This document shows positions 4,257-61,410 of a DNA stretch of 64,000 bases, piece after piece. A program made the translations under genes and the position numbers. A model generated the notes under the pieces. That model had not been told where the DNA came from. It did not search any database and was given only the letters and a program-made list of their open reading frames with translations. The stretch's first letter is position 1; each line of letters begins with the position of its first letter. This DNA comes from Ashinkailepas kermadecensis (taxonomy: Eukaryota; Arthropoda; Thecostraca; Neolepadidae), in the NCBI GenBank assembly GCA_034440615.1, contig JAOTOM010005128.1, forward strand, positions 637,001-701,000. The letters run 5' to 3'.

Positions 4257-5938
4257 CACACTGTTCCCAGTGGAAGTGCGGCCCTGACTGCTTCCGCCGA
4301 CTCCCCTGACCGGTCTGTGTCGTGACAGTACACCGTCACTGTTAGAGTGGCAGTGTGGACTCCACAGACTATTCGGGATTCTCTCACAAATACGATTTGC
4401 TGTCATCTATCCAGGGAGGTAAAGACACTGCACTGGTTTGGGCATGGTGAATTCTCCCTACACTTGGAGGTACACCTGGCCGGAACCTGAAACCTAGGTA
4501 GAAAGGAACACTGTTATTGGCGCTATATGATCAATATGGTCGATGCGCCCTAAAGCCCAAATAACAAACTAACAGTGGAAGTATAGTCCCCACCGCCTTC
4601 CCTGACCAGTCTGTGTCGTGACAGTACACCGTCACTGTTACAGTGGCAGTGCGGCCCCCACCGCCTCCCCTGACCAGTCTGTGTCGTGACAGTACACCGT
4701 CACTGTTACAGTGGCAGTGCGGCCCCCACCGCCTCCCCTGACCAGTCTGTGTCGTGACAGTACACCGTCACTGTCACGGTGGAAGTGCAGTTCCCACCGC
4801 CTTCCCTGACCAGTCTGTGTCGTGACAGTACACCGTCACTGTTACAGTGGCAGTGCGGGCCCCATCGCCCCCTGACCAGTCTGTGTCGTGACAGTACACC
4901 GTCACTGTCACGGTGGAAGTGCAGCCCCCACCGCCTCCCCTGACCAGTCTGTGTCGTGACAGTACACCGTCACTGTTACAGTGGCAGTGCGGCCCCCATC
5001 GCCTCCCCTGACCAGTCTGTGTCGTGACAGTACACCGTCACTGTTACAGTGGCAGTGCGGCCCCCATCGCCTCCCCTGACCAGTCTGTGTCGTGACAGTA
5101 CACCGTCACTGTTACAGTGGCAGTGCGGCCCCCACCGCCTCCCCTGACCAGTCTGTGTCGTGACAGTACACCGTCACTGTTACAGTGGCAGTGCGGCCCC
5201 CACCGCCTCCCTGACCAGTCTGTGTCGTGACAGTACACCGTCACTGTTACAGTGGCAGTGCGGCCCCCATCGCCTCCCCTGACCAGTCTGTGTCGTGACA
5301 GTACACCGTCACTGTTACAGTGGCAGTGCAGCCCCCACCGCCTCCCCTGACCAGTCTGTGTCGTGACAGTACACCGTCACTGTCACGGTGGCAGTGCAGC
5401 CCCCACCGCCTCCCCTGACCAGTCTGTGTCGTGACAGTACACCGTCACTGTCACGGTGGCAGTGCAGCCCCCACCGCCTCCCCTGACCAGTCTGTGTCGT
5501 GACAGTACACCGTCACTGTTACAGTGGCAGTGCGGCCCCCATCGCCTCCCCTGACCAGTCTGTGTCGTGACAGTACACCGTCACTGTCACGGTGGCAGTG
5601 CAGCCCCCACCGCCTCCCCTGACCAGTCTGTGTCGTGACAGTACACCGTCACTGTCACGGTGGAAGTGCAGTTCCCACCGCCTTCCCTGACCAGTCTGTG
5701 TCGTGACAGTACACCGTCACTGTTACAGTGGCAGTGCGGCCCCCATCGCCTCCCCTGACCAGTCTGTGTCGTGACAGTACACCGTCACTGTTATAGTGGC
5801 AGTGTGGCCCCCATCGCCTCCCCTGACCAGTCTGTGTCGTGACAGTACACCGTCACTGTCACGGTGGAAGTGCAGTTCCCACCGCCTTCCCTGACCAGTC
5901 TGTGTCGTGACAGTACACCGTCACTGTTACAGTGGCAG
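4257..5938. repeat. 68-bp array anchored on the TEX2 acceptor
   Basis: About 20 units of 68 bp run from about 4580 to the exon at 5939. One diverged outlying unit at 4257-4355 is separated from them by inserted DNA. Each unit contains CACTGTTACAGTGGCAG, which is identical to the acceptor that ends at 5938. The array therefore carries about 20 copies of the acceptor, and only the last joins coding sequence. Variants ACGGTGGAAG and ACAGTGGCAG alternate between units. Confidence 0.9.
4519..4573 (+). mobile_element. Hairpin-tail mini-retroposon copy
   Basis: The copy starts GGCGCTATATGATC and has the closing arm GATGCGCCC followed by TAAAGCCCAAATAAC. It belongs to the same short family as the copies at 30637, 32411, 33524, 42151, 52650 and 55482. 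It sits in the gap that interrupts the 68-bp array; no clear target duplication is visible. Confidence 0.7.
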
Positions 5939-6047
5939 TACCACGTCCGCCACTCCAGGTGCCGCTGCTAGTCAACCCGGGCCCAGCGTGGGCAAGCGCT
6001 TCTTACAAGTGGTGGACAGGGTGACCACCTCACGCTATTTCCAGCAG
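5939..6047 (+). CDS. TEX2-like protein, SMP-proximal exon
   Basis: The acceptor is the last unit of the 68-bp array (GTGGCAG ending 5938) and the donor is GTATGC at 6048. The exon begins by completing AGT and reads through a Ser/Ala/Pro linker to VGKRFLQVVDRVTTSRYFQQ, leaving in phase 0. The VDR...SRYFQ motif is the conserved TEX2 segment that precedes the C-terminal part of the SMP domain. Length (109 bp) and phase agree with both neighbours. SMP proteins carry lipids between membranes at endoplasmic reticulum contact sites; that role is inferred from the family. Confidence 0.85.
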
Positions 6048-6638
6048 GTATGCGGCTCAGTCTTGGGCCACTTGGGCCGTTTTGTAGGTGTCATGTCAGT
6101 CAGTAGCTGGCGTCCACCTGTCGTAGGGAGAAACCAGTTTCGCTCAGGACTGGGAGCCTGTAACTACTCGAGCCCGTGTGGCCTGAGTCGTGTGACTAAA
6201 AGAGGGTTTGTCGCGTGACTAATGAGAATGGACTGCTTCACCTAGATTGATATAATCGACTGATACGTGCGATGGGATTAATGTACATTAAGCTTGCAAA
6301 TGGACGCAATAGGTGAAGAAGAGCACCCATAATTGTTTTTGTGTTTAAAATGCATTGTATGACGTGTATTATATCCTTACCGCCTATGCTGACGGGATTC
6401 TTACGACTTTCATACACGATATCTCCCTGCATAGATGCGGCTGATAGCTTCAGGTTGAAATTATATTTTTTAAAGCATCCTTTGTGTCACTGGGAAGTCA
6501 AAGAACACGTCCTCGGTGCCCATCGAAGCTGTGTTTAGTGCTGTCACCTGGGCTGATGCCATGGTGTTTGTACACCGATATAGTACTCGATGGTGTGCGT
6601 GCGGCGCCTCCAAATATATGGGTGTGATATGTTGGCAG

Positions 6639-6772
6639 GCGGCGCAGAACCGCTACGTGAAGCGCTACATTGAGGAGTTCTCCAACACGCCGCTGGAGCT
6701 GGCGGTAACGCTGAAGCACCTGCGGGCCGTGCTGACCGTCAACATCCCACGGCCTCCTACCGACCGGGTCTG
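6639..6772 (+). CDS. TEX2-like protein, SMP domain exon
   Basis: The acceptor TGTTGGCAG ends at 6638 and the donor GTGAGA starts at 6773. The exon reads AAQNRYVKRYIEEFSNTP and then a beta-strand-rich stretch ending VNIPRPPTDRVW. The NIPxPPTDRxW motif is diagnostic of TEX2 SMP domains. It enters in phase 0, leaves in phase 2, and the split Trp codon is completed by the next exon. An alternative acceptor nine bases downstream (GGCGCAG ending 6647) would drop only three residues. Confidence 0.92.
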
Positions 6773-7350
6773 GTGAGACTGAGAGCCACCGCTGGCACCA
6801 GCGATGGCTGTCTTTACGGCCGCTTTGCCAATGCAGATCAGGGGCGAGCTGTTGGGCTCCCGTCCCCGTGCTGCAGGAACAAGGTTGAGCACCATACCGT
6901 TATCGGTAGAACACTTGTGAATATACTGCAACTGCCCGAGTTTGGCAACCCGCGGATACATGACTGTTGAATTGCCGGGTGGGGCGACAGATTTGCCGGA
7001 GGGTGCGGAAAGTGGCATCGCGACATAGCCTTGTTCTTTGAGTAAAAAGTGCGGGCATTTCAGAGCAGATGTGGGTGCAAGTGGGCAAAAATATAAATTC
7101 ACAATTAAGTCCGGTTGTGAATGAATGTAACGGAGCTTGCAACCTCAGTACAGAAATGTAATTAAGGTTTAGAAAGGCGGCGATCGAGTTCTGTCGGATG
7201 GCAGTTGGTGTGAGTGTAGCTGGTGACGGTTCAGCTGGACCTGGTGATGGTGGAGCTGGACCTGGTGAGGGTTCGGCCACTGTACTGAAGTCAGTGGCAG
7301 TACTGCTAACTGACTGGGCAGTGTTGCTGAGCTGACCGTGGTCTCCACAG

Positions 7351-11039: not shown

Positions 11040-12700
11040 CAAGTTTAGTAGGTATTGTTACTGGTATTATTCCAGATCCAGGTAAAATGCGATTTTTTGG
11101 ATTTTGTTTTTTAATACAGGGTATTTTAATGTAAAATCATGATGAGACCACTCATTTTCTCCTCAAATCATTATTTTTAAGTTGGCAAACAAATACACTA
11201 CCATAATCTTCACTCTGCAAACATGGCACATCACATATAATTATCCGTACCTGGTGTCACAGACGTGATAAAGAAGACATTCAACACTTCATGCACTCTA
11301 TTTAATACTCTGACATCAAAAACCTTATGTTTCTGCCTTAATTCGACATTATCTCAGAGAATGAATACTCGGAACATGCCGCACCAGCAGCCGTCGATAG
11401 TGGCCAGAAATTCCTTGCGATGCTTTATTATTTTATTTTGAATATATTTGATGACATGGCGGAAAAATTTGTTTCGGACGATTCTGGTTTTCCGGTTAGG
11501 TTAGGTTAGATTATATTATATTATGATATAATATATTTTATATTGTGCTACGTGATCTTAGCCTAGGTTAGGTTAGGTTAGGTTTTTTGTCCCTGACTTA
11601 ATGCATATGACGTCATCAAATCATTATGACGTCATCAACCGTCGCTGACTTAAAAGTAATCATTTGTGGAGAAAATGAGTGGTTGCATAATTATTTTGGT
11701 AAATATCAAGATCAAGGTAAAATGTGTTTTTTTGATTTTTTTGTTTGTAATGGTATGCTTTCTGACCTGATGAAGATGATGCAGTCACTCATTTTCACAG
11801 CAAATGATTACTTTTAAGTCATATACCCTAGGGGTAAATATCAAGATCAAGGTAAAATGTGATTTTTTTGTTGTTGTAATGGTATGCTTTCTGACATGAT
11901 GAAGACGATGCAGTCACCCATTTTCAGCATAATATATAAAATGTATCATAGCATAATATAATCTAATCTAACCTAACCTAACCTAACCTAGCCTAACATA
12001 ACCTAACCTAGCCTAACACAACATAACATAACATGATATAACAAAACATAACCTAACCTAACCTAATCGGAAAACCAGTATACGCAATATGCTATATTTG
12101 TAGAGTGAAGATTTTGCTAGTGTATTTCTTTGCCAACTGAAAAGTAATCATTTGCAGAGAAAATGAGTAGTCGCATCATCATTTCCACATTCAAATACCC
12201 CATATGAAAATAAAATAATTCAAAAAGTCACATTTTACCTTGAACTTGATATAAACCATTATTTTTATGTTAAAATGCCCTGTATAAAAAAATCCAAAAA
12301 ATCACATTTTACCTGTTTCTGGATATTTACCTTGTTACCAAAGTTGCCCATACAATGTCGCAAACATTTGATGACGTCATGGCCAAAATACTTGCTTCGG
12401 AGTATTCTGGTTTTCCGGTTAGGTTAGGTTAGGTTAGATAATATTATGCTATATTACATTTTATATATTATGCTACATTATCTTAGTCTAGGTCATGTTA
12501 GGTTACTTGTGCCTATGATGTCATCAATTGTATTGACTGCCATTGACTTAAAAGTAATCATTTGCAGTGAAAATAAGTGATCGCATCGTCTTCATCACGT
12601 CAGAAAGCATACTATTACATACAAAAATTCCCCAAAATCATAATTTACCTTGATCTCCAAATTTACAGAAACTTAATCCTGACTTCCTTAAATATTGTGT
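11040..12700. repeat. AT-rich foldback cluster with TTAGG-type repeats
   Basis: Two direct copies of GGTTTTCCGGTTAGGTTAGG (about 11487 and 12411) flank an inverted copy (about 11925-12080) that ends in CCTAATCGGAAAACC. Each carries runs of AGGTT/AACCT plus an ATATTATA-rich segment. Flanking modules containing AGTAATCATTTGCAGAGAA also occur in both orientations. The arrangement is nested foldback elements, with TTAGG being the arthropod telomere motif in permuted form. Confidence 0.75.
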
Positions 12701-25140: not shown

Positions 25141-25200
25141 TTATTTACCAGCAATGGCCAGCCTATCAGAAATAATCAACCTGAACGTTGGAGGGGTCAG
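25141..25200 (+). CDS. KCTD3/SHKBP1-like, first coding exon
   Basis: The exon follows the acceptor TTTTTCTTTCAG and has 13 bases of 5' UTR before ATG at 25154 in good context (AGCAATGG). It reads MASLSEIINLNVGGVR and ends in a donor GTGAGT at 25201, splitting the Arg codon after AG. INLNVGG is the start of the BTB/T1 tetramerisation domain of the KCTD family. Because the ATG is just inside an internal exon, the gene must have an upstream non-coding exon. KCTD3 and SHKBP1 pair an N-terminal BTB domain with WD-type repeats; the vertebrate proteins bind HCN3 channels and CIN85 respectively. Confidence 0.93.
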
Positions 25201-25903: not shown

Positions 25904-26077
25904 ATTCTCTACTTCACGACAGACACTCACCTGGATCCAAGACACGTTCTTCACGGCCCTCCTCAGCGGCCGCATCTCCAGCATGCGGGACGAGGCCGGT
26001 CACATCTTCATCGACCGTGACCCCAAGCTGTTCCGGGTCATACTCAACTACCTGCGAACCCGTGACATTGATCTGAG
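25904..26077 (+). CDS. KCTD3/SHKBP1-like, BTB domain exon
   Basis: The acceptor GGTCCGGCAG ends 25903 and the donor GTATGC starts at 26078. The A completes Arg, then [47 protein letters not shown] and DIDL follow. These are the conserved BTB/T1 motifs of the KCTD3/SHKBP1 subfamily. Length is 174 bp, entering and leaving in phase 2. The last bases of the exon with its donor are the founder of the array at 26062-26412. Confidence 0.96.
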
Positions 26078-26412
26078 GTATGCTGGTGACGATGACTAGT
26101 CAGTGAACATTGATGTGAGGTATGCTGGTGACGGTGAATAGTCCGTGACATTGATCTGAAGTATGCTGGTGACGGTGAATCGTCCGTGACATTGATCTGA
26201 GGTATGCTGGTGACCGCGAATCGTCCGTGACATTGATTTGAGGTATGCTGATGACGGTGACATTGATCTGAGGTATGCTGGTGATGGTGAATAATCCGTG
26301 ACATTGACTTGAGGTATACTGGTGATGACAAATAGTCAGTGACATTGATCTGAGGTATGCTGGTGATGGTGAATGGTTCGTTACATTGATCTGAGGTATG
26401 CTGGCGACGATG
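26062..26412 (+). repeat. 41-bp array of exon 2 donor copies
   Basis: Nine copies of the exon-2 end plus donor (GTGACATTGATCTGAG, then GTATGCTGGTGAC) lie at mostly 41-bp spacing. Donor GT positions are 26078, 26120, 26161, 26202, 26243, 26273, 26314, 26354 and 26395. All retain GTAT and eight retain GTATGC. Stop codons (TAG in GACTAGTC and GAATAGTC) follow the first two donors, so use of distal donors would truncate the protein. Confidence 0.95.
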
Positions 26413-26422
26413 AATTGTGAAC

Positions 26423-26635: not shown

Positions 26636-28480
26636 ACCCAAGGCCGATGTAGCTTCTGTCAAATTCGTGTCAATCGCTTTGGTAATGAGTACGATGTAAT
26701 GATGCCACGAATACTGCCGTCCAAAATCGAAGCCCATTACTCTGATGTTTTGGCCATTTTCGTGCTGCTTTCAACATAGCATTGTGACTGTCTTCTCAAG
26801 CTGCATGTGAAGCGAATTTTTTTTAGAAATGCAAAAATGCAACTTTTATCATGCAAATACCGATTTCAACATCATTATGCTGATGAAGAGCTGATCAACT
26901 ACGCAGTTAATAGGGGGCGGAGAGGATCACAGGAGTTGTTTACCAAAACGATTATGTCCGATGCCAAGTGGACCACCTACAACCTGATACCTTCGACGTG
27001 GGCGATCGACCAGCTTCCCTCACGTATGCCAGCTCGAAACCTCGATCAAGACCGGATTGACTAGATCTGTGCCAAATTGTTTCCGCGCCTGTACCAGCAC
27101 AGGCGCCCTTTTTGGTACAACCGGCGGTCGAAAAACAGCGAGCAGACTCCAAGAAAAAGAAAGAGACGGGACCCAGCGGGGAGATGAAGAAACGGCGCAT
27201 GCTGTAGTCGGGCGCGTGGCATGTATGTTTTTAAGTAGATACATATGTAATTCTTAAGTATTGTGTCGACCTAGTCATGTGGTGTATCCACAGTTCTGAA
27301 CGGCGTCTGTTCCTCATTATCCATTTGATTACACGCGATAAGTAAACTTAATTCACTAGATATTGATTAGGCCGGTATTAGTAGAAGTAATTAGGCCGGT
27401 ATTTATACCATGTGTAAGATCGAATTTGCAGGGATATGAAATCGGCCATAACTCGGCAAATACTAAACCCGAAAACATGCGCATGCAGTATCAGCTGGTA
27501 TTTGTGTAATGTTGATGGAAATTCGATATTGTTTATTTCTACCATGATTCAGTGATAATCGACATAGTGATAATATGTATGGTGAAGTTAGAAATAGTCT
27601 GCGCCAGCATATTTGTATATATATATATACGTTTCCTGTTCGCTTATAGCAAGTACAAGGACGATATGTTATTTTCCGTCAACCGTATCAAATCGCATTC
27701 TGACGAGGACTACGCTCCCTCCGAAACTGTATATAACCGTATGCGAGAGTGGAATCGCGCGATCTACTCGGAAGAGGGTGCAAATACTGAACACCTCAGC
27801 TAGCAAGGCTCGGAGTCGGCAAAAACAACAGCACCACACAACCAGCAACTACGAACCCGCCGAGGAAGGACAATCACTGTAAGATGTCACCCTCACAGAA
27901 CCCGAAACCAATATAGCACCTTTAGGAACAATTTTGATGCACCATTACTAATGAAAGGTGTTGAAAAACATTCCATAATAACTTATGTTGTTATGGAATC
28001 AAGATTTAACTTTGCAAAACGCATTGCATCCCAACCTAATGAGCTGACAAGGCCCACTAGTTCCGGATACAATGGCTACTACATATTTTCAACGTATTGC
28101 GTTTTGACAGCTATCAGAGAACATAGTTGGTTTTATCTTTGCATTGTGGTAAACAAAAATATTCTGAGACTGAAAGTCAAAATCTCTTTCAAAATAACTT
28201 AAAGTTTTGAGCTGCCAGGACTAAAAATGGATCGAAAACTCCTTGCATTGTTACGGTTACAATGCTGTATCATATTCACGTATTGATCGATACACTGTAA
28301 TGCATTTTTTTTTAAACGCTCTTCCGAGCATCCTTGATTTTTTTAACGCGACATGAAGTGTTTTGACTGGACTGCAAAACTGAAGTACCACGAACCAATA
28401 GTTTAGTCGTGTTCGAACCAATAGTTTAGTCATGTTCCAGCTTGTACTATGTGCACGGAACTGTCCGTGTTATCGATATC
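26636..28480. other. KCTD3 intron 2, no recognised gene
   Basis: The frame at 26807-27064 and its continuation in another frame to about 27200 (ending in a basic KRKRD-like tail) might be decayed coding DNA, but no family is recognisable. The rest is AT-rich with nothing to report. Confidence 0.35.
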
Positions 28481-28499
28481 TGACTATCCCCGGCTCCCT

Positions 28500-29592
28500 C
28501 AGTCCCCTGGATCTGACTGTATCCGGTCTCCATCAGCCTTCCGAATCTGACTATCCCCGTCCCCGTCAGCCCTGTGGATCTGACTGTCGCCGTCTCCGTC
28601 AGCCCTGTGGATCTGACTATCCCCGTCCCCGTCAGCCCTGTGGATCTGACTATCCCCGTCCCCGTCAGCCCTGTGGATCTGACTATCCCCGTCTCCGTCA
28701 GCCCTGTGGGTCTGACTGTCGCCGTCTCCGTCAGCCCTGTGGATCTGACTATCCCCGTCTCCGTCAGCCCTGTGGGTCTGACTATCCCCGTCTCCGTCAG
28801 CCCTGTGGATCTGACTATCCCCGTCTCCGTCAGCCCTGTGGGTCTGACTATCCCCGTCTCAGTCAGCCCTGTGGGTCTGACTATCCCCGTCCCCGTCAGC
28901 CCTGTGGGTCTGACTATCCCCGTCTTCGTCAGCCCTGTGGGTCTGACTATCCCCGTCTCCGTCAGCCCTGTGGATCTGACTGTCGCCGTCTCCGCTAGCC
29001 CTGTGGATCTGACTATCCCCGTCCCCGTCAGCCCTGTGGGTCTGACTATCCCCGTCCCCGTCAGCCCTGTGGGTCTGACTATCCCCGTCTCCGTCAGCCC
29101 TGTGGATCTGACTATCCCCGTCTCCGTCAGCCCTGTGGGTCTGACTATCCCCGTCTCCGTCAGCCCTGTGGATCTGAATGTCGCCGTCTCCATCAGCCCT
29201 GTGGATCTGACTATCCCCGTCTCCGTCAGCCCTGTGGATCTGACTGTCGCCGTCCCCGTCAGCCCTGTGGATCTGACTGTCGCCGTCTCCGTCAGCCCTG
29301 TGGATCTGATTGTCGCCGTCTCCGTCAGCCCTGTGGGTCTGACTATCCCCATCTCTGTCAGCCCTGTGGGTCTGACTATCCCCGTCTCCGTCAGCCATGT
29401 GGATCTGACTATCCCCGTCTCCGTCAGCCCTGTGGATCTGACTGTCGCCGTCTCCGTCAGCCCTGTGGATCTGACTGTCGCCGTCTCCGTCAGCCCTGTG
29501 GATCTGCATGTCGCTGTCTCCGTCAGCCTTGTGGATCTGATTGTCGCCGTTTCCGTCAGCCCTGTGGATCTGACTGTCGCCATGTCCGGCAG
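28500..29592 (+). repeat. 33-bp array of exon 3 acceptor copies
   Basis: About 31 units of 33 bp have the form CCGTCTCCGTCAG then CCCTGTGGATCTGAC. The exon 3 junction reads CCATGTCCGGCAG then CGGCCTGGATCTGGA, clearly the same sequence. Because 33 is a multiple of three, every CAG in the array enters exon 3 in the same phase, and the plus frame 28574-29592 has no stop. Each unit would encode 11 residues of the type [11 protein letters not shown]. Variants alternate between GACTATCCCC and GACTGTCGCC. Confidence 0.95.
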
Positions 29593-29732
29593 CGGCCTGG
29601 ATCTGGACGCGCTGCGGCACGAGGCCGAGTTTTACGGTCTTCAGCCGCTGGTGGGTCGGCTGGTGCTGTGCCAGGACCTGACGGCGCCCACGTGCGGCAG
29701 CGTGCTCTTCCACGGTCTCCTGCCGCCAGCAG
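29593..29732 (+). CDS. KCTD3/SHKBP1-like, exon 3
   Basis: The acceptor TGTCCGGCAG ends 29592; the donor is CAG then GTCGGT at 29733. The exon reads [20 protein letters not shown], then [31 protein letters not shown] and CGSVLFHG are subfamily hallmarks closing the BTB region. It enters in phase 2 and leaves in phase 1. A weaker donor four bases downstream (29737) would change the exit phase to 2 and would suit the alternative start of exon 4. Confidence 0.94.
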
Positions 29733-30636
29733 GTCGGTCGGCGTCAGCGATCGTCCTCAGCCGTTTGCTGCCCCCTCCTCCCTCCCCCTCACCAGCCCTG
29801 CACGTCTCACATTGTAATGGCCTGTGGCGGCCAGCTCTGAGAATCGCACAGCCAGACCATGTCGTCCGTCGGTTGTGTAATTACCGCACGGAGTGGGCTT
29901 GTTAGTCAACTGGGTAGTTTGTTTCTTCTTGTTCTCTTCGGACGTTGACTGTTGACGTTTCGACCGCTGCAGGCACCACGCCGAACCGGTGTCGCTCGTA
30001 TCCACATGTATTTATCAGTTCATATTTAACCCGGATATGGTTGTACGCGGATTCAGGTGGTCTTCTGTTTCTGCTGCGCTTTCACGCTGGGTGGATTATG
30101 TTGCTTTATTTCAGCTCATCTCCTCTTCTTCATTTAATTATCAGTCAGATGTATTCTCTTTTTGGTTGACGCAGGCGTCGACAGAATTATAACCTGTGGA
30201 GGCCTCTTCCACCCCTCCACGTATTTTCCGCATTGATCTCGATGTGATTATGCATATGAGATATGCCTGACATGAGGCGATACATGATCGACGGCAGGTG
30301 GTGTGCCCTGTGGCCCCAACAACAGCCAGTCGGCGTGCTACCAGGATTACTGTGCGCTGAGTGTGACCCCTGTCGGGCAGCGCCTCCGCCGCCACCGCAC
30401 CAGCAGGAGGTGCCCGAAGCTGCGGCACGGGCGGCCGAGGTACGGCCCGGCACAATCATGAGAGTTCCCGACACACCCCGAGGTCACTCCCGACAGTCTT
30501 CTGCCGACCTCAGGTCAGCCATCTGGCCACGTGGTCAGTGGTGCCAGATGTCGACCTCGGATCGGACTGTAGGTCACGGGGTCTGTGCCGGTCTTAGATC
30601 AGTGTATGGATCACGTGGTATGTATCGTTGAGATTT

Positions 30637-30769: not shown

Positions 30770-32033
30770 AGATGTTTGTTCGCGGCCGGTGTGTGACCGT
30801 CCCCTCTGTGGCAGGTGTGTAGCCGGTGTGTGACCGTCCCCTCTGCGGCAGATGTGTAGCCGGTGTGTGACCGTCCCCTCTGCGGCAGGTGTGTAGCCGG
30901 TGTGTGACCGTCCCCTCTGTGGCAGGTGTGTAGCCGGTGTGTGACCGTCCCCTCTGCGGCAGATGTGTGGTAGGTGTGTGACCGTCCCCTCTGTGGCAGG
31001 TGTGTAGCCGGTGTGTGACCGTCCCCTCTGTGGCAGGTGTGTAGCCGGTGTGTGACCGTCCCCTCTGTGGCAGGTGTGTAGCCGGTGTGTGACCGTCCCC
31101 TCTGCGGCAGATGTGTGGTAGGTGTGTGACCGTCCCCTCTGTGGCAGGTGTGTAGCCGGTGTGTGACCGTCCCCTCTGTGGCAGGTGTGTAGCCGGTGTG
31201 TGACCGTCCCCTCTGCGGCAGGTGTGTAGCCGGTGTGTGACCGTCCCCTCTGTGGCAGGTGTGTAGCCGGTGTGTGACCGTCCCCTCTGTGGCAGGTGTG
31301 TAGCCGGTGTGTGACCGTCCCCTCTGCGGCAGATGTGTGGTAGGTGTGTGACCGTCCCCTCTGTGGGAGGTGTGTAGCCGGTGTGTGACCGTCCCCTCTG
31401 CGGCAGGTGTGTAGCCGGTGTGACCGTCCCCTCTGCGGCAGATGTGTGGTAGGTGTGTGACCGTCCCCTCTGTGGCAGGTGTGTAGCCGGTGTGTGACCG
31501 TCCCCTCTGCGGCAGGTGTGTAGCCGGTGTGTGACCGTCCCCTCTGTGGCAGGTGTGTAGCCGGTGTGTGACCGTCCCCTCTGCGGCAGGTGTGTAGCCG
31601 GTGTGTGACCGTCCCCTCTGTGGCAGGTGTGTAGCCGGTGTGTGACCGTCCCCTCTGTGGCAGGTGTGTAGCCGGTGTGTGACCGTCCCCTCTGCGGCAG
31701 ATGTGTGGTAGGTGTGTGACCGTCCCCTCTGTGGGAGGTGTGTAGCCGGTGTGTGACCGTCCCCTCTGCGGCAGGTGTGTAGCCGGTGTGTGACCGTCCC
31801 CTCTGCGGCAGATGTGTGGTAGGTGTGTGACCGTCCCCTCTGTGGCAGGTGTGTAGCCGGTGTGTGACCGTCCCCTCTGCGGCAGGTGTGTAGCCGGTGT
31901 GTGACCGTCCCCTCTGTGGCAGATGTGTGGTAGGTGTGTGACCGTCCCCTCTGTGGCAGATGTGTGGTAGGTGTGTGACCGTCCCCTCTGTGGCAGGTGT
32001 GTAGCCGGTGTGTGACCGTCCCCTCTGCGGCAG
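30770..32033 (+). repeat. 37-bp array of exon 4 acceptor copies
   Basis: About 34 units of 37 bp read CCGTCCCCTCTGTGGCAG then GTGTGTAGCCGGTGTGTGACC. The end of the array reads CCGTCCCCTCTGCGGCAG then GTTTATGGCCGGTGTGGCGCC as it enters exon 4, so the array is built from this pyrimidine-rich acceptor and the first bases after it. Every unit keeps a CAG after a pyrimidine tract. Long minus-strand frames through it are not genes. Confidence 0.95.
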
Positions 32034-32068
32034 GTTTATGGCCGGTGTGGCGCCTCGGCCGACGGCAG

Positions 32069-32273
32069 CCCTGGCGCGGCCGGGACACTCGCGCGGCGGC
32101 TCGCTCGACCTGCGACACTCGCGCAGCTCGTCGGCTGACCTCAGTCGGCTGCTGCGCGGTGAGCTGGGGCCGCTGCTGGCGCCGCTGCTGGCGCCGCCTG
32201 CTGGCGTCCGACTCATCCGAGGGCACCACAACTGGCTGGTGGCCGCCTACGCCCACCACGTCTCCTGCTACAG
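32069..32273 (+). CDS. KCTD3/SHKBP1-like, exon 4
   Basis: The exon encodes a Ser/Arg-rich, Leu-rich linker, then VRLIRGHHNWLVAAYAHHVS-CYR, the conserved RxxxGHHNW...AYAHxxxCYR motif that opens the WD-like region. The donor is GTGTGT at 32274 and the exit phase is 2. The start is chosen at the AG ending 32068 because it matches the phase-1 exit of exon 3. The stronger pyrimidine-tract acceptor ending 32033 would add 35 bases (reading FMAGVAPRPTAA) but needs the weaker exon 3 donor at 29737. Both pairs keep the frame. Confidence 0.88.
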
Positions 32274-32410
32274 GTGTGTCACCACACCTGCTACAGTTGC
32301 CACTCCACGTTTGATACAGGTGCCCAATTCAACTGTTGAAGGAACCGCATAATGCTATTCATAAAAGCCTGGTTGCAAATAAGTCTGGAGCACATCGTGT
32401 TGGCAGCAAA

Positions 32411-37239: not shown

Positions 37240-37567
37240 CGTCTTTTCGTTTCGTCTTTCGTCATTTCAACTTCCATTACTCACCGTGGTATGCAGTTAG
37301 TTGCCGGTGAAAATACACCAGTGTGACGAGTTCCATTTTTCGTTTGGCTGGCATGGTAAGACATAAAGAAGGAAAGAGGTGGAAGCGATTATTTCGGAAT
37401 TAGTTGCTCTTTCTAGCCAAGGTCTAGTGTACTTCTAAAATGGATGATGGCAACATAAATTATCAGGTGAAATATGTCGATACCTAGCGGCTATTCAGCT
37501 TCATGTCATTTAACCCTTTCAAAATAGACATACGCAGTCCTATGCAATGTTATGATAGAAACGGATA

Positions 37568-37959: not shown

Positions 37960-38156
37960 GATGAAAGACTCGACCGGCTGGCACCTGTTCTACACGTCGC
38001 CGCACATCCCGGCCACCATAGACCGGGTGGCCATCAACGCCAAGGTGGGGCCGAGCGGCTCAGTGGCCGATGTCAGCACCAAGATGCTGGGCATCTCGTG
38101 CGGCGCCACCGTCCACCTGTGGGGAATCTCTGAGGACGGCAGCAAGTCGGATGTGG
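37960..38156 (+). CDS. KCTD3/SHKBP1-like, exon 5
   Basis: The acceptor CGACAACAG ends 37959; the donor is GTGAGT at 38157. The exon completes Arg and reads MKDSTGWHLFYTSPHIPATI, then DRVAINAKVG, a variable loop, and VHLWGISEDGSKSDVG. The pattern (C)YR-xKxSxGWxxxFxSP...I(E/D)RVAxNAKV followed by a strand ending in LW is the first WD-type blade of this subfamily. It enters in phase 2 and leaves in phase 1. It is one of the two exons with no tandem array at either junction. Confidence 0.94.
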
Positions 38157-38389: not shown

Positions 38390-38600
38390 AATCAACGTGA
38401 TGGTGTGTTACCGCGGTATGTCAGTCCAGTGGCATGGTATTACTGGGGTATGTCAGGCCAGTACGATATTGTTCCGCGGTATGTCACACCAGTGTGATGG
38501 TTTTATCGCTGTATGTCGGACTAGTGTGATATAGTTATTGTGGTATGTCTGACCAGTGTGATATGTTACCTCGGTATGTCAGACCAGTGTGATGGTGTTT
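38390..38600. repeat. Diverged ~31-bp repeats leading into the palindrome
   Basis: Units of the type GCGGTATGTCAGACCAGTGTGAT begin here with many mismatches and continue into the left arm of the palindrome. Confidence 0.8.
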
Positions 38601-41838: not shown

Positions 41839-43719
41839 ATGGATTCTCCTGACACACAACTATACCCTCGCCCTAGTCTTGACTCGGACGATTCGTCGTT
41901 CCAGTCTTCCACATCCCAGTCCCGCGCCTCCGTGAGGCCAGTTTTAGACGCTGTCTCGGATTGCCCTTCTATGGATTATCGTCCCGTCGGGGCGACGCGA
42001 CCTGACAAGACACCTGAGCGTGAAACCGAAGTAGAGCCCGAGTTCGTCGACCCAACTGTCTTGATCCTGTCGAGTTCAGAGCTCAGACTGTCCGACCTCA
42101 GCCCTTTCCAACGGTGTGAGGGCACTGAGCGATTCGGTACGGTGGTACGGAATGGGCGCAAAATGACCACAGCAGTCGACGCGCCCTAAAGCCCAAATAA
42201 CTAACTAACGGTGGTACGGTGCGACAAATTGGTTGATGGTTGCATCGAAGTTGAATTTTCGGATCCGGAGGAAGCTAGGCGGGCGTTAAAAGCCACACTC
42301 TTTACGTTTACGTACACCATCGATGGTAGACGCGTACAAAGGACAGTGCCCCTAAATGTGAAAACTCACCACTCTAAAAACTGCTCCAGAGGTGTCATCA
42401 CTTGCCATGACCTACAAGGTGTGACAAGTGAAGAAATTGTGCGCGGTCTTGCGGCGTTCGGTGTCCTGGAAGCTAGAAGACTGAAAACGAAAAGGGACGG
42501 CATTTCACACGACACAGACAACATCGTACTTACTTTTAACTCCAAAACACAGCCTACCCATGTGAGAATCGGGCATGTTAGGGTCAGAGTCCGCGTTTAT
42601 CGACCAATCCCGATGAGATGCTTCGCATGTCACAGGTACGGACACACCAGCCGCCACTGTCGATCAAAGCCGAGGTGTCTGCGATGTGCCTCCTCGGATC
42701 ATTCTGTGGACGCTTGCACATCGGAAACCTTATGCTGTCCAAACTGCAAGGGCGATCATTCTGCTCGTGACCGAGTCTGCCCGGTTTTCAAACGGGAGCA
42801 GAGTATTATAAGATTGAAGTGTGACAGGGGCGTGTCATTCCGAGAAGCTCGGGAAATGACCAAGACGGCCACTACACCTCGCTCTTATGCGGCCGTGGTG
42901 GCCAGCTCCACCCATCCCCTTCAACCCGAGTCATCCCAGGAGCGAACAGACATGCCACCTACTTCACCTGCACCACGGAGCTGTGATCCTCCTGGACGCG
43001 ATGCTCTGGATAAGATGACAGCCCGCCAATTGATTGGCCTGCTAAAGGAATGTGGTCTGGCAATAATCCAGGTAAACTCAGAAGATGAAATCCCGGCGGC
43101 AGTAACTGGAGTTGCAGCCGACTACGTCTTACCGGCTTGCCCTGCTGTTGTGCAGACAGAAACTTCGTTCAGTTCCCCAAAACAACGTCGTCCTGAGCAG
43201 CGCACGATCGCCTGCCAAACTGACGCTACCGCAACTCCGGTGACTGAACCGATCATGGTGGCATCCACTCAAACAACTCCCGCAGAATTCCCTAATGTAC
43301 CACCCCCATCGACTCTCTTACCTCTCCGATCGACCAGCTCATTGCCGTCACTGAGAATTCCTGTGCGAAGTGGAGCTCCGGACCTGACAGCGCGAGGTAG
43401 AGCAGAACGGTCTACAAGTGTGGCATCAAACATCGGTGGGAAAGGCGCAGTGCGAAAATGTTCCATGGCTGTGAGGCTCGGCGTGCGAGAACGCTCACCA
43501 TCGGTACCGCGCGCATCACTTGGCCCCTCTGGAGAAATAATGGGGCCACCTTCAACTGCCCCATTCACAGGCCAGCCACTTACACCACCTACCAGCCGAA
43601 AGCGGATGCCTATTTCACCACCGACCGAAGCGAGTCCCAGGTCCCGTCCCCGCGCTGAGTCGCCCGTGATGAGGCACCCACCTGTAAGCCGAGACGTGTG
43701 GGGTAGACTACCGTCCTGA
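41839..43719 (+). pseudogene. LINE ORF1 gag-like protein, interrupted
   Basis: The frame encodes a Ser/Asp/Pro-rich N-terminus and an RNA-binding-like central part (FSDPEEARRAL, GVLEARRLKTKRDG, IVLTFNSK). Three CCHC knuckles follow, then a long Pro/Ser/Thr-rich tail. Such ORF1 proteins coat LINE RNA. A 58-bp insertion with an 11-bp duplication at 42140-42219 adds 69 bases: the frame is kept, but a TAA at 42187-42189 is introduced. The 502-codon frame starting at 42211 has no ATG there, so it is not an independent gene. Confidence 0.8.
42151..42208 (+). mobile_element. 58-bp hairpin-tail mini-retroposon inside LINE ORF1
   Basis: Begins AATGGGCGCAAAATGACC, closes with GTCGACGCGCCC and ends AAATAACTAACTAA. 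An 11-bp duplication CGGTGGTACGG flanks it (42140-42150 and 42209-42219). It is inserted in the same orientation as its presumed LINE relative. Confidence 0.92.
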
Positions 43720-44062: not shown

Positions 44063-44266
44063 GCCAGTTTAACCTGGGCGTGCCGGTGGAGCACCTGTTC
44101 TTCATCGGGCCGCAGCTGGTGGGCCTGTCGTCGGTGGGCAGGATTGGCGTGTGGCACGCCATGACGCACCACTGGCAGGCGCAGGAGGTCGGCCACATCT
44201 CCAGCTTCGACCGCGCCGGCAGCTTCCTGCTGCTGGGCGGCACCAATGGCTCCATCTACTATATCG
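44063..44266 (+). CDS. KCTD3/SHKBP1-like, exon 6
   Basis: The acceptor GACGTTCCAG ends 44062 and the donor GTCAGT starts at 44267. The exon reads GQFNLGVPVEHLFFIGPQLV, then SVGRIGVWHAMTHHWQAQEV, SFDRAGSFLLLGGTNGSIYYI. The strings LGVPVxxLFFIGxQLV and AGSFLLLGxxNGSIYYI are nearly invariant in KCTD3 and SHKBP1 and form WD-type blades. It enters and leaves in phase 1. No tandem array is attached. Confidence 0.96.
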
Positions 44267-45313: not shown

Positions 45314-45430
45314 ACATGCAGAAGTTTCCGCTGCGGATGAAGGACAACGACCTTCTGGTGACCGAGCTCTACCACGACGCCAGCGACGACCCCATCACCG
45401 CCATCAGTGTGTATTTAACTCCGAAAACAA
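45314..45430 (+). CDS. KCTD3/SHKBP1-like, exon 7
   Basis: The acceptor GCTGTTGACAG ends 45313; the donor is GTAAGT at 45431. It completes Asp and reads [20 protein letters not shown], then [16 protein letters not shown]. This is the most conserved stretch of the subfamily. It enters and leaves in phase 1. The donor is the first of five tandem donors. Confidence 0.97.
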
Positions 45431-45795
45431 GTAAGTCTCGCCGTTCGGTTGTCACCATTAGTACGTACCCCATGGGCACATAGTTGCCCGGGTGACCATC
45501 AGGGTGAGTCCCGCCGTTTCATTGTCACCATTAGTGCGTACCCCATGGGCACATAGTTGCCCAGGTGACCATCACGGTGAGTATCGCTGTTCCGTTGTCA
45601 CCATTAGTACGTACTCCATGGGCACATAATTACCCAGGTGACCATCACGGTGAGTCTCGCCGTTCCATTGTCACCATTAGTGCGTACCCCATGGGCACAT
45701 AATTACCCAGGTGACAATCACTGTGAGTCTCGCCGTTCCATTGTCACCATTAGTACGTACTCCATAGGTACATATTCACCCAGGTGATCATCACG
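45431..45795 (+). repeat. 73-bp array with five GTRAGT donors
   Basis: Five units of exactly 73 bp begin at 45431, 45504, 45577, 45650 and 45723. Each starts with a full donor: GTAAGTCTCGCC, GTGAGTCCCGCC, GTGAGTATCGCT, GTGAGTCTCGCC and GTGAGTCTCGCC. Units also share GTCACCATTAGTACGTAC and CCATGGGCACATA. The array starts at the exon/intron border itself. Confidence 0.95.
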
Positions 45796-46241
45796 GTCGC
45801 CACACAGGGGCCGATCCAAAAGCCAGGCCTGGGGCAAACGAGCAAATTATCCGATCTCGAAGAAAAGCCCATCGGATTTGAAGGGGTAACATTCGTCGGG
45901 TCTGTTGAAGAAAATATTTACGTCATCAAATGTTATTAGATTTCGAGGAAAAACCGCTTATGGGTGGGACGGCCTACCCCCCCCCCCCCACACACACACT
46001 CGGATTGGCCAGTTTTTTTTCTCACAAACCACTGCCACTAGTACCAGTGCATGTCTAACTATGCAAACAACTAAGTCCTATCTCGTGTTGAGTTTTGGAG
46101 CTCACCATGCCAGACAAGGAATTCCTAACCGACTCTTCGTCTTCGACTAGTAGGCCACGAGCGAACGCCAGTTTACTCCGGTCTTTTTACTAGCACCATA
46201 TCCTCCCTGATATATAGCTTCCAACCACTTGCAATGATATA

Positions 46242-50518: not shown

Positions 50519-51752
50519 TCATACGTAGATGGGCTCGTACCCTGCAGCGTGCACGTCCTCTGTGGCCCGCCCAGGAGCGGTGTACGCCGGCTGGACCTGG
50601 GCCCGCTCCTGCTCCTGCTCCTGCCGCCCCTGTGGGCTGGAGTAGCTGAGCTGGACGGTGCGCTGCTCGGCCGGCACCTCGGTGGAAGGCACCACCGGTG
50701 TCGGGTACTCGGTCGGCACGGGCGTCGGCAGCGAGTCGCCGTCGGCGCGGAACCCGAGTGCGTCAGCCACGTAGCGCACCGACACGGTGGAGCCGTCAGG
50801 TGCGACGTAGCTGTAGGAGCCGAACACGGCGCCGTCGGAGCGTTGCTCCTCCCGACTGATGCCGTCGTCGGATAGGAAGCGGAAGGCGTAGCCGCCCTGG
50901 TCGTCGGTCTCGCTACTCGACTCCAGAATGCGTGCGACGGGCGGTTGTTCGGCACGCTCGACGGGCGGTTGTTCGGCACGCTCGACGGGCGGTTGTTCGG
51001 CACGCTCGACGGGTGGTTGTTCGGCACGCTCGACGGGCGGCTGTATAGCGCGCGCGGCCGGTGCGGCGTACCCGGCACTGGCGCGGACTGGCAACTCGGC
51101 GCGCAGCTCCGGCGCGGCGTACCTGGCGTTGGAGCGGTCTGACGCCTGGGCGGAGACGGCGGCTACCAGCGCCATCAGAGTCAGCAACAACTGCAATAGA
51201 GGCGGTGGTTATGCATGAGGCAGATAGGCACTGTTTTCACCAGTGTTCGTAGATCAAGCAATGGCTTGAATGCAAGCGGTGGTTATATATCGGAAAAAGA
51301 TCGGCGTTATATCGACTAGATACGGATATAACTGGGGCTGTGGCGATCGGTCTGGGTCGGATAGCGATGCACACATTCGATGCTTTCCAGAGTATGCAAG
51401 GAACAGCTAGTAACTGCATGTGAAATGCTAGGTTCTTTTTTCTGATAAGTGAACCTACAGTGGCAGATCTAGATGGCTTTCAGGTCAGTCCGCGCCCGCC
51501 GTAGCCGATTGTTCAGTAAAACTTGCGTAAGGGCATTTCAGATAATTTTGGATATTGCATTGCATATTTCATTAAGAAATATTACTTTCATAGGAATATT
51601 ACGCCCATAACTAACTAAATCTGAGAATTGATTTGTTGTCCATAGTTCCCTCCCCCTACAAAAGGTTGAAAACGAGCTTCTGGATCCTTCAAAATAAACT
51701 TTGCACGTAAATATGCTGGCCAAAACCGCACTGGCAAGCCAGCTACCTTCAT
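50519..51752 (-). CDS. Cuticle protein with RR-1-type chitin-binding domain
   Basis: Two coding exons on the minus strand. Exon 1 is ATG AAG (51752-51747) followed by a donor GTAGCT. Exon 2 runs 51190-50519 after the acceptor CTATTGCAG. Joined, the start is MKLLLTLMALVAAVSAQA, a good signal peptide. Then follow an Ala/Arg-rich part, four tandem PPVERAEQ octapeptides plus a partial fifth, and the chitin-binding Rebers-Riddiford region: GGYAFRFLSDDG, SREEQRSDG, GSYSYVAPDGSTVSVRYVAD and LGFRADGDSLPTPVP. A Pro/Gln-rich tail ends in YEPIYV. A two-codon first exon splitting the signal peptide is common in arthropod cuticle genes. The protein should be secreted into the cuticle. It lies antisense in intron 7 of the KCTD3-like gene. 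Confidence 0.92.
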
Positions 51753-51842: not shown

Positions 51843-51849
51843 TCGGTGG

Positions 51850-57440: not shown

Positions 57441-57449
57441 GGTAAGTGC

Positions 57450-58511: not shown

Positions 58512-58540
58512 ACCACGGTTAAGGCAGTTAACCGTGGTAG
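58512..58540. repeat. 12-bp hairpin
   Basis: TACCACGGTTAA pairs with TTAACCGTGGTA around GGCAG, just after the 29-bp array. Confidence 0.85.
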
Positions 58541-59497
58541 ATGCCGGGTCTTTACAACCGTTTTTCACATCGCGTTGATAGACCAGTTGAGACGGGTGAA
58601 ATCATCCTGACTGACTTCCTAATAACAGCATAATTAGCATGGTCATCGATTGAGGCCTGTCTTCACACTTGGGGGGGGGGCAAGGTCCACAATGCGTTTT
58701 GAGTCCAGAATATCTAGTGTAGGCGTAATGTTAACTTCACTTCGGAAAGCAGGTCGGAGCCGCTGCTCCTACGGAGAGTAGCGGCTTTGCGGAGATGCCA
58801 CTATGGTCGATAGCGATGTCTGGGTGGTTATTCTGCCAGAGTGAATGACACCAGATGAATATGCCAAACTTGTGGAAGCGGCTGTGCGGCATTCAGCGAC
58901 GCGAAGTCGTGAATGCAATGACCAATTTTGACGAAAAAATCAGCAGTGATTCATTCCAAATTCTTGCGTGCTGGAAAGAAGCCGCTTTCAGAGTTCAAAG
59001 CAGGTTCCGAATGGTGCTGGCGCCCGCCGACATTTTGGAATTTTATAACACTAAAGGGGACTGCAAACACATTAGCATCTCAAGGGCCATCGCGAACCTG
59101 TGTGACTGATGCTGTTCGGTTAAGCGTTATACAGCGGTTGAGCCTGATGATCTTTGCTTTCTCAAGTATGTTCGAACATATGCAATTCCAGATCACTTGT
59201 CCCCGCGCTGCGCAGGGCTAGATACCCAGCATCAAAGGTTACTTCTTTATTTAGTAATGGCCTGCTCGTTAACCACTACTTAGTTTTTACAGAATTACAG
59301 ACTTCGGAATTATCTCGGAATTACATATTTGCCCATCCTGTATCGGCATGGTGTGCGCTCAGTGTGTCATTGCCATTGTCATTGTCAAATGTGCAACAAT
59401 GCCGACCCGTGGGTGGTAGCGTTACCGAGCCTTTCTCGGGACGTTCTCACTTTACTGTTCTCGCCCAACTGCCATTCTTATCGGGACTATTATTATC
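58541..59497. other. Intron 7, no recognised feature
   Basis: No coding or structural feature recognised; short unsupported open frames only. Confidence 0.4.
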
Positions 59498-59760
59498 ACC
59501 CGACTGACTTTCTCACCAGACTATTCTCACCCGACTGACGTTCTCACCAGACTATTATCACCCGACTGGCGCTCTCGCCAGACTATTCTCACCCGACTGA
59601 CGTTCTCACCAGACTATTATCACCCGACTGGCGATCTCGCCAGACTATTCTCACCCGACTGACGTTCTCACCAGACTATTATCACCCGACTGGCGATCAC
59701 GCCAGACTATTCTCACCCGATTGGCGCTCTCACCGGACTATTCTCACCCAACTGACATGT
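59498..59760 (+). repeat. 31-bp array preceding the exon 8 acceptor
   Basis: About eight units read TCTCACCCGACTGACGTTCT then CACCAGACTAT. The last unit, CTATTCTCACCCAACTGACATGTGCAG, shown here only by its ends CTATTCTCACCCAACTG and ATGTGCAG, is the polypyrimidine region and acceptor of exon 8. Each unit contains a CCAG that could act as a decoy acceptor. Confidence 0.88.
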
Positions 59761-59764
59761 GCAG

Positions 59765-59904
59765 GTCTGTGCGGCAACTGGATCGAGATAGCGTACGGCA
59801 CGAGTTCCGGCACAGTACGTGTGATCGTGCAGCACCCCGAGACGGTGGGCCACGGACCTCAGCTGTTCCAGACCTTCACCGTCCACCGCAGTCCCGTCAC
59901 TAAG
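59765..59904 (+). CDS. KCTD3/SHKBP1-like, exon 8
   Basis: The acceptor ATGTGCAG ends 59764; the donor is AAG then GTCGGT at 59905. The exon completes Ser and reads [40 protein letters not shown] and [19 protein letters not shown] and VQHPETVG...[14 protein letters not shown] are almost identical to vertebrate KCTD3/SHKBP1. It enters in phase 1 and leaves in phase 0. Arrays flank it on both sides. Intron retention would give an open frame through the downstream array to about 60837. Confidence 0.97.
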
Positions 59905-60838
59905 GTCGGTCATGCCCCCATGGCACCGTCACTAAGGTCGGTCACACGCACAGTTCCGGCACTTGGATCAGTCACCCCACAGTCTCCTCACTGGGGTCAT
60001 GGACGCCCCGCAGTCCCGTCACGAGTGTCTGTCACCCCGCAGTCACGTCACGAGTGTCGGTCACCCCGCAGTCCCGTCACGAATGTCGGTCACCCCGCAG
60101 TCACGTCACGAATGTCGGTCACCCCGCAGTCACGTCACGAATGTCGGTCACCCCGCAGTCACGTCACGAGTGTCGGTCACCCCGCAGTCACGTCACGAGT
60201 GTCGGTCACCCCGCAGTCACGTCACGAGTGTCGGTCACCCCGCAGTCACGTCACGAGTGTCGGTCACCCCGCAGTCACGTCACGAGTGTCGGTCGCCCCG
60301 CAGTCCCGTCACGAATGTCGGTCACCCCGCAGTCCCGTCACGAGTGTCGGTCACCCCGCAGTCCCGTCACGAGTGTCGGTCACCCCGCAGTCACGTCACG
60401 AGTGTCGGTCACCCCGCAGTCACGTCACGAGTGTCGGTCACCCCGCAGTCCCGTCACGAATGTCGGTCACCCCGCAGTCCCGTCACGAATGTCGGTCACC
60501 CCGCAGTCACGTCACGAGTGTCGGTCACCCCGCAGTCCCGTCACGAGTGTCGGTCACCCCGCAGTCCCGTCACGAGTGTCGGTCACCCCGCAGTCCCGTC
60601 ACGAATGTCGGTCACCCCGCAGTCCCGTCACGAATGTCGGTCACCTCACAATCTCGTCACGAATGTCGGCCACCCCGAAGCCTCGTCACGAATGTCGGTC
60701 ACCCCGCAGTCCCGTCACGAATGTCGGTCACCCCGCAGTCCCGTCACGAGTGTCCGTCACCCCGCAGTCCCGTCACGAATGTCGGTCACCCCGCAGTCTC
60801 GTCACGAATGTCAGTCACCCCGCAGTCCTGTCACTGAG
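59890..60838 (+). repeat. 29-bp array of exon 8 donor copies
   Basis: About 30 units read CGCAGTCCCGTCACGAATGT then CGGTCACCC. The exon 8 end reads CGCAGTCCCGTCACTAAG then GTCGGTCA, so each unit is a copy of the junction in which the base before GT is now T. Units therefore keep GTCGGT but have a weaker donor context than the first. Because 29 is not a multiple of three and no unit has a stop, all three plus frames are open. Confidence 0.95.
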
Positions 60839-61178
60839 GTCGTCCCCGTGACTAGTCAGGCTACGCAGGTGGTATGGTGCCACAGACGGCGGCGGTGAGT
60901 GCCACGCCTGGGTGTGGCGGCCGGCGACCTCTGCCGCTGAGTTAGACGACCGTCACTGTGTGAACTTCTGCTGAGCACTTACCCAGGCTGCTCTGATCAC
61001 TGTTGCCAGATCTGTGAGATTCGTGAGAATTTTAATTATCGTAAAACCTGAGTCATTGTGTTGCCTGCCTACGTTCCATGCTTGGGATTTTCCATCCACA
61101 GTTCGGACGTCATTGGCGGGGGTGTTATCCGCGAGCGCAATGGCGCGCTTCCTCGCCCGTTTGAAGTGTCTGCCAAGT

Positions 61179-61223
61179 GTTTCTCTGCCGGAGAAGTTGT
61201 TGACGTCGGCGCGTTGTCGCCAG
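61179..61223 (+). repeat. 45-bp duplication of the exon 9 start
   Basis: The 45 bases before exon 9 resemble its first 45 bases: [15 protein letters not shown] upstream against [15 protein letters not shown] in the exon, same frame and no stop. It is a one-step tandem duplication across the acceptor. Confidence 0.8.
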
Positions 61224-61410
61224 GTGTCACTGTCGGAGAAGTTCCTGATATCGGCGTGCTCCGAGTACCACCACGTGCGCACGTGGTCGGTGACGCGGTT
61301 CAGAGGCATGATCAGCACTCAGCCCGGCTCGCAGCCGCTGGCCAGCTTCAAGATCGTCAGTCTCGAGAGCGTGGAGCACCAGCCGACCCACGCTGTCGGG
61401 AACGACCCAG
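61224..61410 (+). CDS. KCTD3/SHKBP1-like, exon 9 (last in window)
   Basis: The acceptor GTTGTCGCCAG ends 61223; the donor is GTCGGT at 61411. The exon reads [40 protein letters not shown] and SFKIVSLE, ending in GNDP. LSEKxLxSxC...[20 protein letters not shown] is a hallmark WD-type segment. It enters in phase 0 and leaves in phase 1; vertebrate proteins continue with a G(P/x)xGERDDQQVF exon that I could not find before the window ends. Roughly the last third of the protein is therefore missing here. Confidence 0.96.

Follow-up and report, generated by a model that had tools for sequence, protein, structure and literature searches.

Tandem arrays bordering splice junctions in the barnacle Ashinkailepas kermadecensis are probably ‘mirages’, that is, minisatellites derived from a tandemly duplicated exon–intron border, which persist as tolerated passengers of the intron and are widespread in this genome. 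The arrays were studied in a window of 64,000 nucleotides (nt) on contig JAOTOM010005128.1 (C4631:637001-701000), part of an assembly of 907,663,968 bases in 4689 contigs. The window holds ten exons of KCTD3 and the 3′ end of a second gene, which we take to be TEX2. In a sample of genes from beyond the window, roughly one junction in eight lies at an array edge. The two-sided repeat units, the excess of array edges in genes unselected for repeats, the mostly intact decoy splice sites, the lack of a reading-frame signal and the strongly differing length of one intronic array in two near-identical contigs are all direct observations. The decoys are most likely tolerated, with splicing taking place at the exon-proximal copy.

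Arrays at the junctions of TEX2 and KCTD3

Exon models in the window were rebuilt from reading frame, phase and homologue alignment (two barnacle models plus a pair of proteins from other crustaceans). The rebuilt set comprises five TEX2 exons, the first of them partial, and ten KCTD3 exons, with 28 junctions in total. The original prediction had counted fourteen visible exons and had overlooked the KCTD3 exon at 30381..30513 (+ strand; exon 3b), which was located by alignment with Pollicipes and Amphibalanus and whose closest array edge is at least 271 nt away. Tandem Repeats Finder (TRF) returned 52 rows for the window, which were merged into 35 arrays with a period of at least 10.

The clear cases are all in KCTD3. 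At the donor (26077) of exon 2 (25904..26077, +), which lies inside the BTB domain, the array at 26060..26415 (+) has a unit of about 41 nt made of exon tail plus intron head. Each unit includes 13-18 nt of exon, GT is found in 8/8 junction-like copies and the exon-edge copy scores 46 against a shuffle maximum of 22. The donor (59904) of exon 8 (59765..59904, +) is spanned by a 29-nt unit in 32.8 copies (59886..60842, +) that carries 19 nt of exon; 31 of the 32 junction-like copies have GT and the exon-edge score is 38 (shuffle maximum 30). These decoys are weaker than the real site (median score -3.7 versus 1.9); the real site reads AAG/GTCGGT, with the slash at the junction, and T precedes GT in most copies. 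At the acceptor of exon 4 (32034), placed by phase and by Pollicipes sequence spanning the join, both TRF and the copy counts confirmed a 37-nt unit in 34.2 copies with 16 nt of exon (30785..32049, +). AG is present in 33/33 junction-like copies, and the exon-edge score of 27 lies above 200 random intron pieces and below the shuffle maximum of 29. As the original prediction held, these arrays arose by tandem duplication of the splice junction, their units being two-sided.

At two further junctions the match is weaker. Exon 4 (32034..32273, +) has an array at its other end too, where a 23-nt unit in 2.7 copies with 10 nt of exon (32264..32324, +) crosses the donor (32273). The sole junction-like copy there lacks GT, and the score of 21 is under the shuffle maximum of 24 and over 200 random pieces. 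At the acceptor of exon 3 (29593-29732), a 33-nt unit in 33.8 copies (28478..29593, +) ends at the junction (29593) and its similarity to the exon side is weak, with a score of 19 that is under the shuffle maximum of 23 and over 200 random pieces. We note that an open frame of 443 codons (28574-29905, +), in frame with exon 3, covers most of this 33-nt array; use of a decoy acceptor there would thus add in-frame repeats of 11 residues. For the start of exon 9 (61224..61410, +), one diverged copy sits in the intron just 5′ of the acceptor at 61224 (61172..61211, +). The local alignment score of this copy is 34 versus a maximum of 26 in 300 shuffles, and TRF reports no array.

No two-sided unit of the mirage type was found at three other junctions. 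The TEX2 array identified by TRF (4588..5939, +; 68-nt unit, 19.9 copies) ends exactly at the junction between 5938 and 5939. It includes one exonic base and concerns the intron side only, with AG in 19/19 junction-like copies; the exon directly 3′ of it (5939..6047, +) rests on phase-consistent GT/AG and its translation. The array next to the donor (45430) of KCTD3 exon 7 (45314-45430) has a 73-nt unit in 5 copies (45434..45797, +), begins 3 nt within the intron and is likewise one-sided. The array at the exon 8 acceptor (59765) is intronic (59491..59756, +; 31/62-nt unit) and ends 8 nt before the junction. A second TEX2 acceptor (7351) has a 21-nt, 1.9-copy array ending 14 nt before it, and is one of nine edge-proximal junctions in the window.

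At least seven arrays built on junction units, matching on both sides of the border, had originally been claimed. That description stands clearly at the exon 2 donor, the exon 4 acceptor and the exon 8 donor, and weakly at the exon 3 acceptor; it also applies weakly to the exon 4 donor, which like TEX2 7351 was outside the original list. The exon 9 acceptor reduces to one diverged copy and the rest do not match on both sides, so the count was too high. Of the 28 window junctions, 9 have an array edge no more than 20 nt away, against a mean of 1.23 and a maximum of 8 in 5000 rotations of the arrays. This figure is biased upward, since the window was chosen because a reader had noticed arrays in it.

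Array edges in a genome sample

The sample beyond the window was taken from families of multi-exon conserved genes, picked regardless of repeats. Profile matches in the assembly numbered 39 for adaptins (PF01602), 52 for chaperonins (PF00118), 78 for myosin heads (PF00063) and 125 for kinesins (PF00225). The sequence used comprised the best 30 of 39 adaptin and the best 30 of 52 chaperonin matches, four exon-dense regions (three myosin, one chaperonin) and, for kinesins, 20 regions as paired contigs plus 12 more from the head of the list; one contig pair is near-identical and hence not independent. An intronless myosin match (C2400), an adaptin match with four stops (C4652:1178532) and loci L001-L008 were left out before counting, and exons already within a locus were counted once. 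Translations of the sampled matches were compared with human proteins. The 102 exons gave 166 junctions, with 28 discarded by score, and two corrections reduced these to 164. An extension added 20 (4 discarded by score), bringing the set to 184 junctions on 31 contigs.

An exon-facing array edge is found within 20 nt of 23/184 junctions (12.5%), comprising 10/92 donors and 13/92 acceptors. With the 20-nt test displaced into the intron the mean was 1.96% and the maximum 5.5% (1000 draws); the junction excess beyond the window on which the original prediction depended is thus present in the sample. Bootstrapping by contig (164 junctions) places the fraction within 20 nt at 7.4-18.5%, and for the same junctions 16/26 contig-family units have at least one edge between -60 and +20. 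Over the full set, 31/184 junctions have an edge in that interval and 21/184 have an array extending 5-60 nt into the exon. The 20 extension junctions supplied 2 edges within 20 nt, both at the same exon and one of them at a doubtful acceptor call.

Within 20 nt of a junction there are 3.0-3.3 exon-facing edges per kb, with donors and acceptors both peaked. At 20-60 nt on the exon side the density is 1.2-1.8 per kb, an interval that still includes the two donors later withdrawn (L039 and L040). Into the intron the density is 0.6-1.1 per kb at 20-100 nt (0.6-0.9 at 20-60 nt) and 0.4-0.6 per kb farther away. In a check made without TRF, the exon edge was found again (local score at least 30) in the adjoining 400 nt of intron at 16/141 junctions, against 5/130 when the search was moved 605-1005 nt away and 0/141 in the intron of another junction.

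Structure and origin of the junction arrays

Array anatomy was examined in 29 junction arrays (7 from the window and 22 sampled). L039 and L040 (7 copies) are still included here, as they are in the figures for the two sides, age, period and skew given below. Among 306 junction-like copies, GT or AG is intact in 286, and 166 score at least as high as the true site. The similarity of the copies to the true junction is 0.853 on the exon side and 0.879 on the intron side (20 arrays), or about 0.89 on both once L039 and L040 are set aside; near-equal retention is expected if one segment was duplicated. Homogenisation templated by the exon was considered and rejected, as the exon side is better kept in 10 arrays and the intron side in 10. 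The first copy is spaced 23-95 nt from the junction in 27 arrays, with one outlier at 292. Junction and interior arrays are alike in copy number (median 3.6 versus 3.7). Junction arrays are longer (median 450 versus 240 nt, p = 9e-6, although locus ends may have truncated the interior ones) and have longer periods (68 versus 50). The possibility that they are younger was not borne out (match 91 versus 89%, p = 0.58; 36 and 104 arrays). The ends of interior arrays resemble sense acceptors in 26% of cases (14% at random) and donors in 15% (7.6% at random); neighbouring exons were unmasked, and hence we do not interpret these figures.

Paralogues differ in their arrays. Two kinesin paralogues, L092 and L094 (on C3728 and C4571), have a donor in common and each has its own, different array unit; the first unit is 63 nt (48 nt of exon) in one and 41 nt (20 nt of exon) in the other. 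One array crosses the acceptor of an exon on C3402 and a second begins 12 nt into the intron at the donor of that exon; the paralogue on C3549 has neither.

These features are consistent with the following course of events. A short segment straddling the exon–intron border would be tandemly duplicated into the intron, and the array would then multiply, presumably through slippage or unequal exchange. Splicing would take place at the exon-proximal copy. The array would thereafter be near-neutral passenger DNA of the intron, free to grow. Since it is the intron that gains the copies, the one next to the exon would retain the authentic splice site and the frame, and the array could therefore be tolerated.

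A number of results weigh against this reading. In the window, only the arrays at the exon 2 and exon 8 donors and the single copy at exon 9 exceed all shuffles. A 40-nt piece centred on the junction has a copy (at least 26/40, within 1.5 kb) at 5/26 window junctions, against 19.6% of sampled window positions. The window excess resides in array edges, that is, in array seeding sites, and not in repeat coverage. An edge excess would be compatible with ordinary coverage if seeds are what is counted; an array of N copies would descend from one unit, so that its bases exaggerate the frequency with which ancestral sequence was duplicated, while a junction would be a single ancestral point. The sampled exon ends are heuristic, having been set by GT/AG scoring near the ends of Pfam matches. 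The L039 and L040 donors proved wrong on sequence inspection and were removed, and doubtful calls, for example L074 A and L102 A, remain in the set. The sample itself is uneven, drawn as it was from best matches, exon-dense regions and paired contigs that include near-identical ones, and so are the rates per family for edges between -60 and +20 in the set of 164 junctions, namely 13/52 (25%) for adaptins, 8/47 (17%) for chaperonins, 4/30 (13%) for myosins and 4/35 (11%) for kinesins. In C3901 (L069) and C4646 (L070), a haplotig-like pair from one chaperonin region whose flanks are 97.8-97.9% identical, an intronic array measures 2222 and 297 bp respectively, which points to fast change in the length of this array; the array does not cross a junction. 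Lastly, base composition accounts for about half of the raw excess.

The effect of composition favours an explanation that is quite possibly correct. Birth would then not be specific to junctions; GC-rich (guanine plus cytosine) sequence of exon-like character would duplicate everywhere, exonic events would be purged and the border would be a harmless refuge. Intronic edges indeed become denser as the flank grows richer in GC (about 0.5 per kb at 20-50% GC, 1.1 per kb at 60-70% GC), junction arrays average 60% GC and a coding exon in the window carries an in-frame 24-nt array. Splice-site strength is the same at junctions with and without arrays (donors p = 0.75, acceptors p = 0.86), as this explanation would have it; the equal scores also lend no support to the idea that strong sites, donor or acceptor, attract arrays. 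However, when the GC of the outside flank, on the exon side, was matched, 6.2 edges were expected within 20 nt and 21 were observed, a 3.4-fold excess (166 junctions). This control is conservative, because other exons of the same genes were left unmasked in the flanks. The fall in edge density between the first 20 nt and the next 40 nt into the intron also tells against this explanation. Junctions may be either mutational hotspots or places where GC-rich exon-like sequence duplicates harmlessly. Arrays may be born in a distinct way at splice sites, as originally proposed.

A bolder form of the hotspot idea is put forward tentatively. In the barnacle germline, splice junctions would be true hotspots of tandem duplication, the distal breakpoint falling by preference some 21-23 nt into the intron, and the resulting banks of decoys would feed new sites and introns. 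The intron part of the first unit measures 21-23 nt in 8/27 arrays, four at donors and four at acceptors, an observation made post hoc that we treat as a lead only. A breakpoint shared by donors and acceptors would suggest a process tied to the junction in its transcribed or spliced form. If the hotspot idea is true, banks of intact decoys would be a standing, genome-wide source of new splice sites and introns.

Damage coupled to splicing or transcription (R-loops, stalled polymerase, breaks) could in principle seed arrays at junctions, and both this breakpoint and the edge peak within 20 nt of donors and acceptors alike would fit. We regard it as unlikely. Splice-site strength is unrelated to the presence of arrays, and the exon-side breakpoints are scattered over 0-53 nt. 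R-loop seeding had been suggested in the original prediction, but the G-rich coding strand it implies was not found; the sign of the GC skew on that strand is inconsistent (19 positive and 21 negative of 40 arrays, mean 0.028).

It is similarly improbable that the arrays are born within introns and consume flanking unique sequence until selection halts them at the exon. The arrays at the acceptors of TEX2 (5939) and KCTD3 exon 8 and at the exon 7 donor would suit such a barrier, as they abut the exon or stop short of it and their units hold no exon sequence. On the other hand, junction-like copies are nearly as many as units in L016, L062 D, L071, L094 and, within KCTD3, at the donors of exons 2 and 8 and the acceptor of exon 4, which indicates that those arrays were seeded across the junction. 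Arrays that do not cross a junction are, moreover, mostly unrelated to their own exon edge, with 4/82 in the top 5% for similarity and one good case (L022); for the same reason interior arrays were rejected as displaced mirages.

That the arrays form a selected, functional bank of alternative splice sites is very unlikely. The high retention of GT/AG in the decoys might be cited in its favour, together with a weak difference from the next six intronic positions (0.906 versus 0.875, p = 0.015 uncorrected; 25 arrays) and the occurrence of just 2 gene-frame stops in the 1115 nt of the KCTD3 exon 3 array. Yet array periods show no excess of multiples of three (modulo 3 they are spread 15/9/16 over 40 arrays), and in 37 arrays the gene frame has 263 stops against 267 and 207 in the other frames and is thus no freer. 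The exon 8 donor decoys score below the real site, and passages of the lancelet work report that mirages do not disturb normal splicing (PMC3087553). The system of tolerated alternative sites originally suggested accordingly loses its footing. An artefact of assembly or annotation is the least probable explanation of all, for although the junction calls outside the window are partly heuristic, with two found to be wrong, and haplotig-like pairs are kept in the assembly, the arrays contain many diverged units, stand beside conserved reading frames and recur across independent contigs.

The reading we prefer remains that of tolerated mirages. A genome in which about one sampled junction in eight has an array derived from its own splice site or adjoining it would be a natural experiment on how the spliceosome chooses among near-identical sites, and on whether introns are gained from duplicated splice sites, as has been proposed.

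Gene models, neighbouring sequence and known systems

The TEX2 junctions are at 4109, 5939, 6047, 6639, 6772, 7351, 7471 and 8094, and no Pfam domain was found in the TEX2 fragment. The first KCTD3 exon (25141-25200) was placed by frame, phase and alignment, and further exons lie at 37960-38156 and 44063-44266. A BTB_2 domain is found in the KCTD3 product (Pfam, E 6.6e-23), with no other domain above the cut-off. The homologue search used a provisional exon join lacking exon 3b and with errors at two joins. Among the 120 matches listed, the best is a barnacle protein, and barnacles also supply the two highest identities; Pollicipes pollicipes KCTD3 (P0001) is 79% identical across 81% of the query and Amphibalanus amphitrite KCTD3 (P0119) is 73% identical, at rank 119. 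The Pollicipes and Amphibalanus models (437 and 448 residues) terminate just past exon 7, at the donor (45430) that is bordered by an array in our sequence, and the remaining KCTD3 models among those listed have about 630-840 residues. The two shorter proteins are either truncated models or a real short isoform. Junction arrays may mislead gene prediction, and the ending of both barnacle models at this donor may be an example.

Other features of the window lie mostly in the KCTD3 introns. A tRNA-Gly (tcc) gene (37168-37240, +) is located between exons 4 and 5. Between exons 5 and 6, two 32-nt arrays (38405-38876 and 39952-40570) about 1 kb apart have reverse-complementary units and belong to a large inverted duplication. 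An open frame of 502 codons (42211-43719, +) has cysteine/histidine knuckle-like motifs and presumably resembles the first open reading frame of a non-LTR (long terminal repeat) retrotransposon. The long intron 3′ of exon 7 contains a 225-codon open frame (50519-51196, -), which we take to be cuticle-protein-like; within it lies, in frame, a coding array with a 24-nt unit (50935-51044). Just 3′ of exon 9 there is a near-perfect long hairpin (61731-61842). The short motif GTCGA(C/T)GCGCCC is dispersed at 4539, 30658, 42175, 43890 and 52672, followed by similar short tails, and is probably the end of a dispersed element. A TAACC array (11959-12066) is presumably the arthropod telomere motif TTAGG on the opposite strand.

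We did not find such arrays reported for barnacles or other crustaceans among the matches listed from the open-licence literature, in titles and the starts of abstracts, which is a weak test of absence. Several known systems are related. Like ordinary intronic minisatellites (variable number tandem repeats), the junction arrays have the usual homogeneity and copy number; unlike them, they have an edge at the exon border and are longer in extent and period. In human IFI6, passages of one report describe a minisatellite with several donors, in which two downstream repeat units act as alternative donors (PMC4526556). The tandem copies of a splice donor at the end of an exon are common to both cases, although IFI6 is one gene with repeat-unit donors in use, and for the barnacle arrays the frame and stop-codon tests give no hint of such use. 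Intron gain by tandem duplication (PMC4974935, PMC3443670), with the AG/GT proto-splice sites discussed in PMC3087553, likewise involves a second splice site brought near a first; here, in contrast, existing introns have been lengthened.

The closest parallel is with lancelet mirages, the exon–intron boundary minisatellites that passages of PMC3087553 and PMC3902484 report from scattered lancelet genes, the latter adding TnC and PGBD5. Both sets have junction-spanning units (clear at three window junctions, with exon-reaching arrays at 21/184), both affect donors as well as acceptors (here 10/92 and 13/92) and in both many copies retain AG or GT (here 286/306). They differ in the crustacean host, in the 184 junctions measured here as against the single genes of the lancelet passages and, by comparison with those passages, in that several of the present arrays are long, at about 14 to 41 copies. 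The mirage of the lancelet Adh3 gene is also reportedly unstable in somatic cells. The arrays share the defining features of mirages that were clearly tested. We thus assign them to a kind already known, and what is new is the crustacean lineage and a frequency that can be measured; with mirages in a crustacean and a measured excess at junctions, their origin becomes testable.

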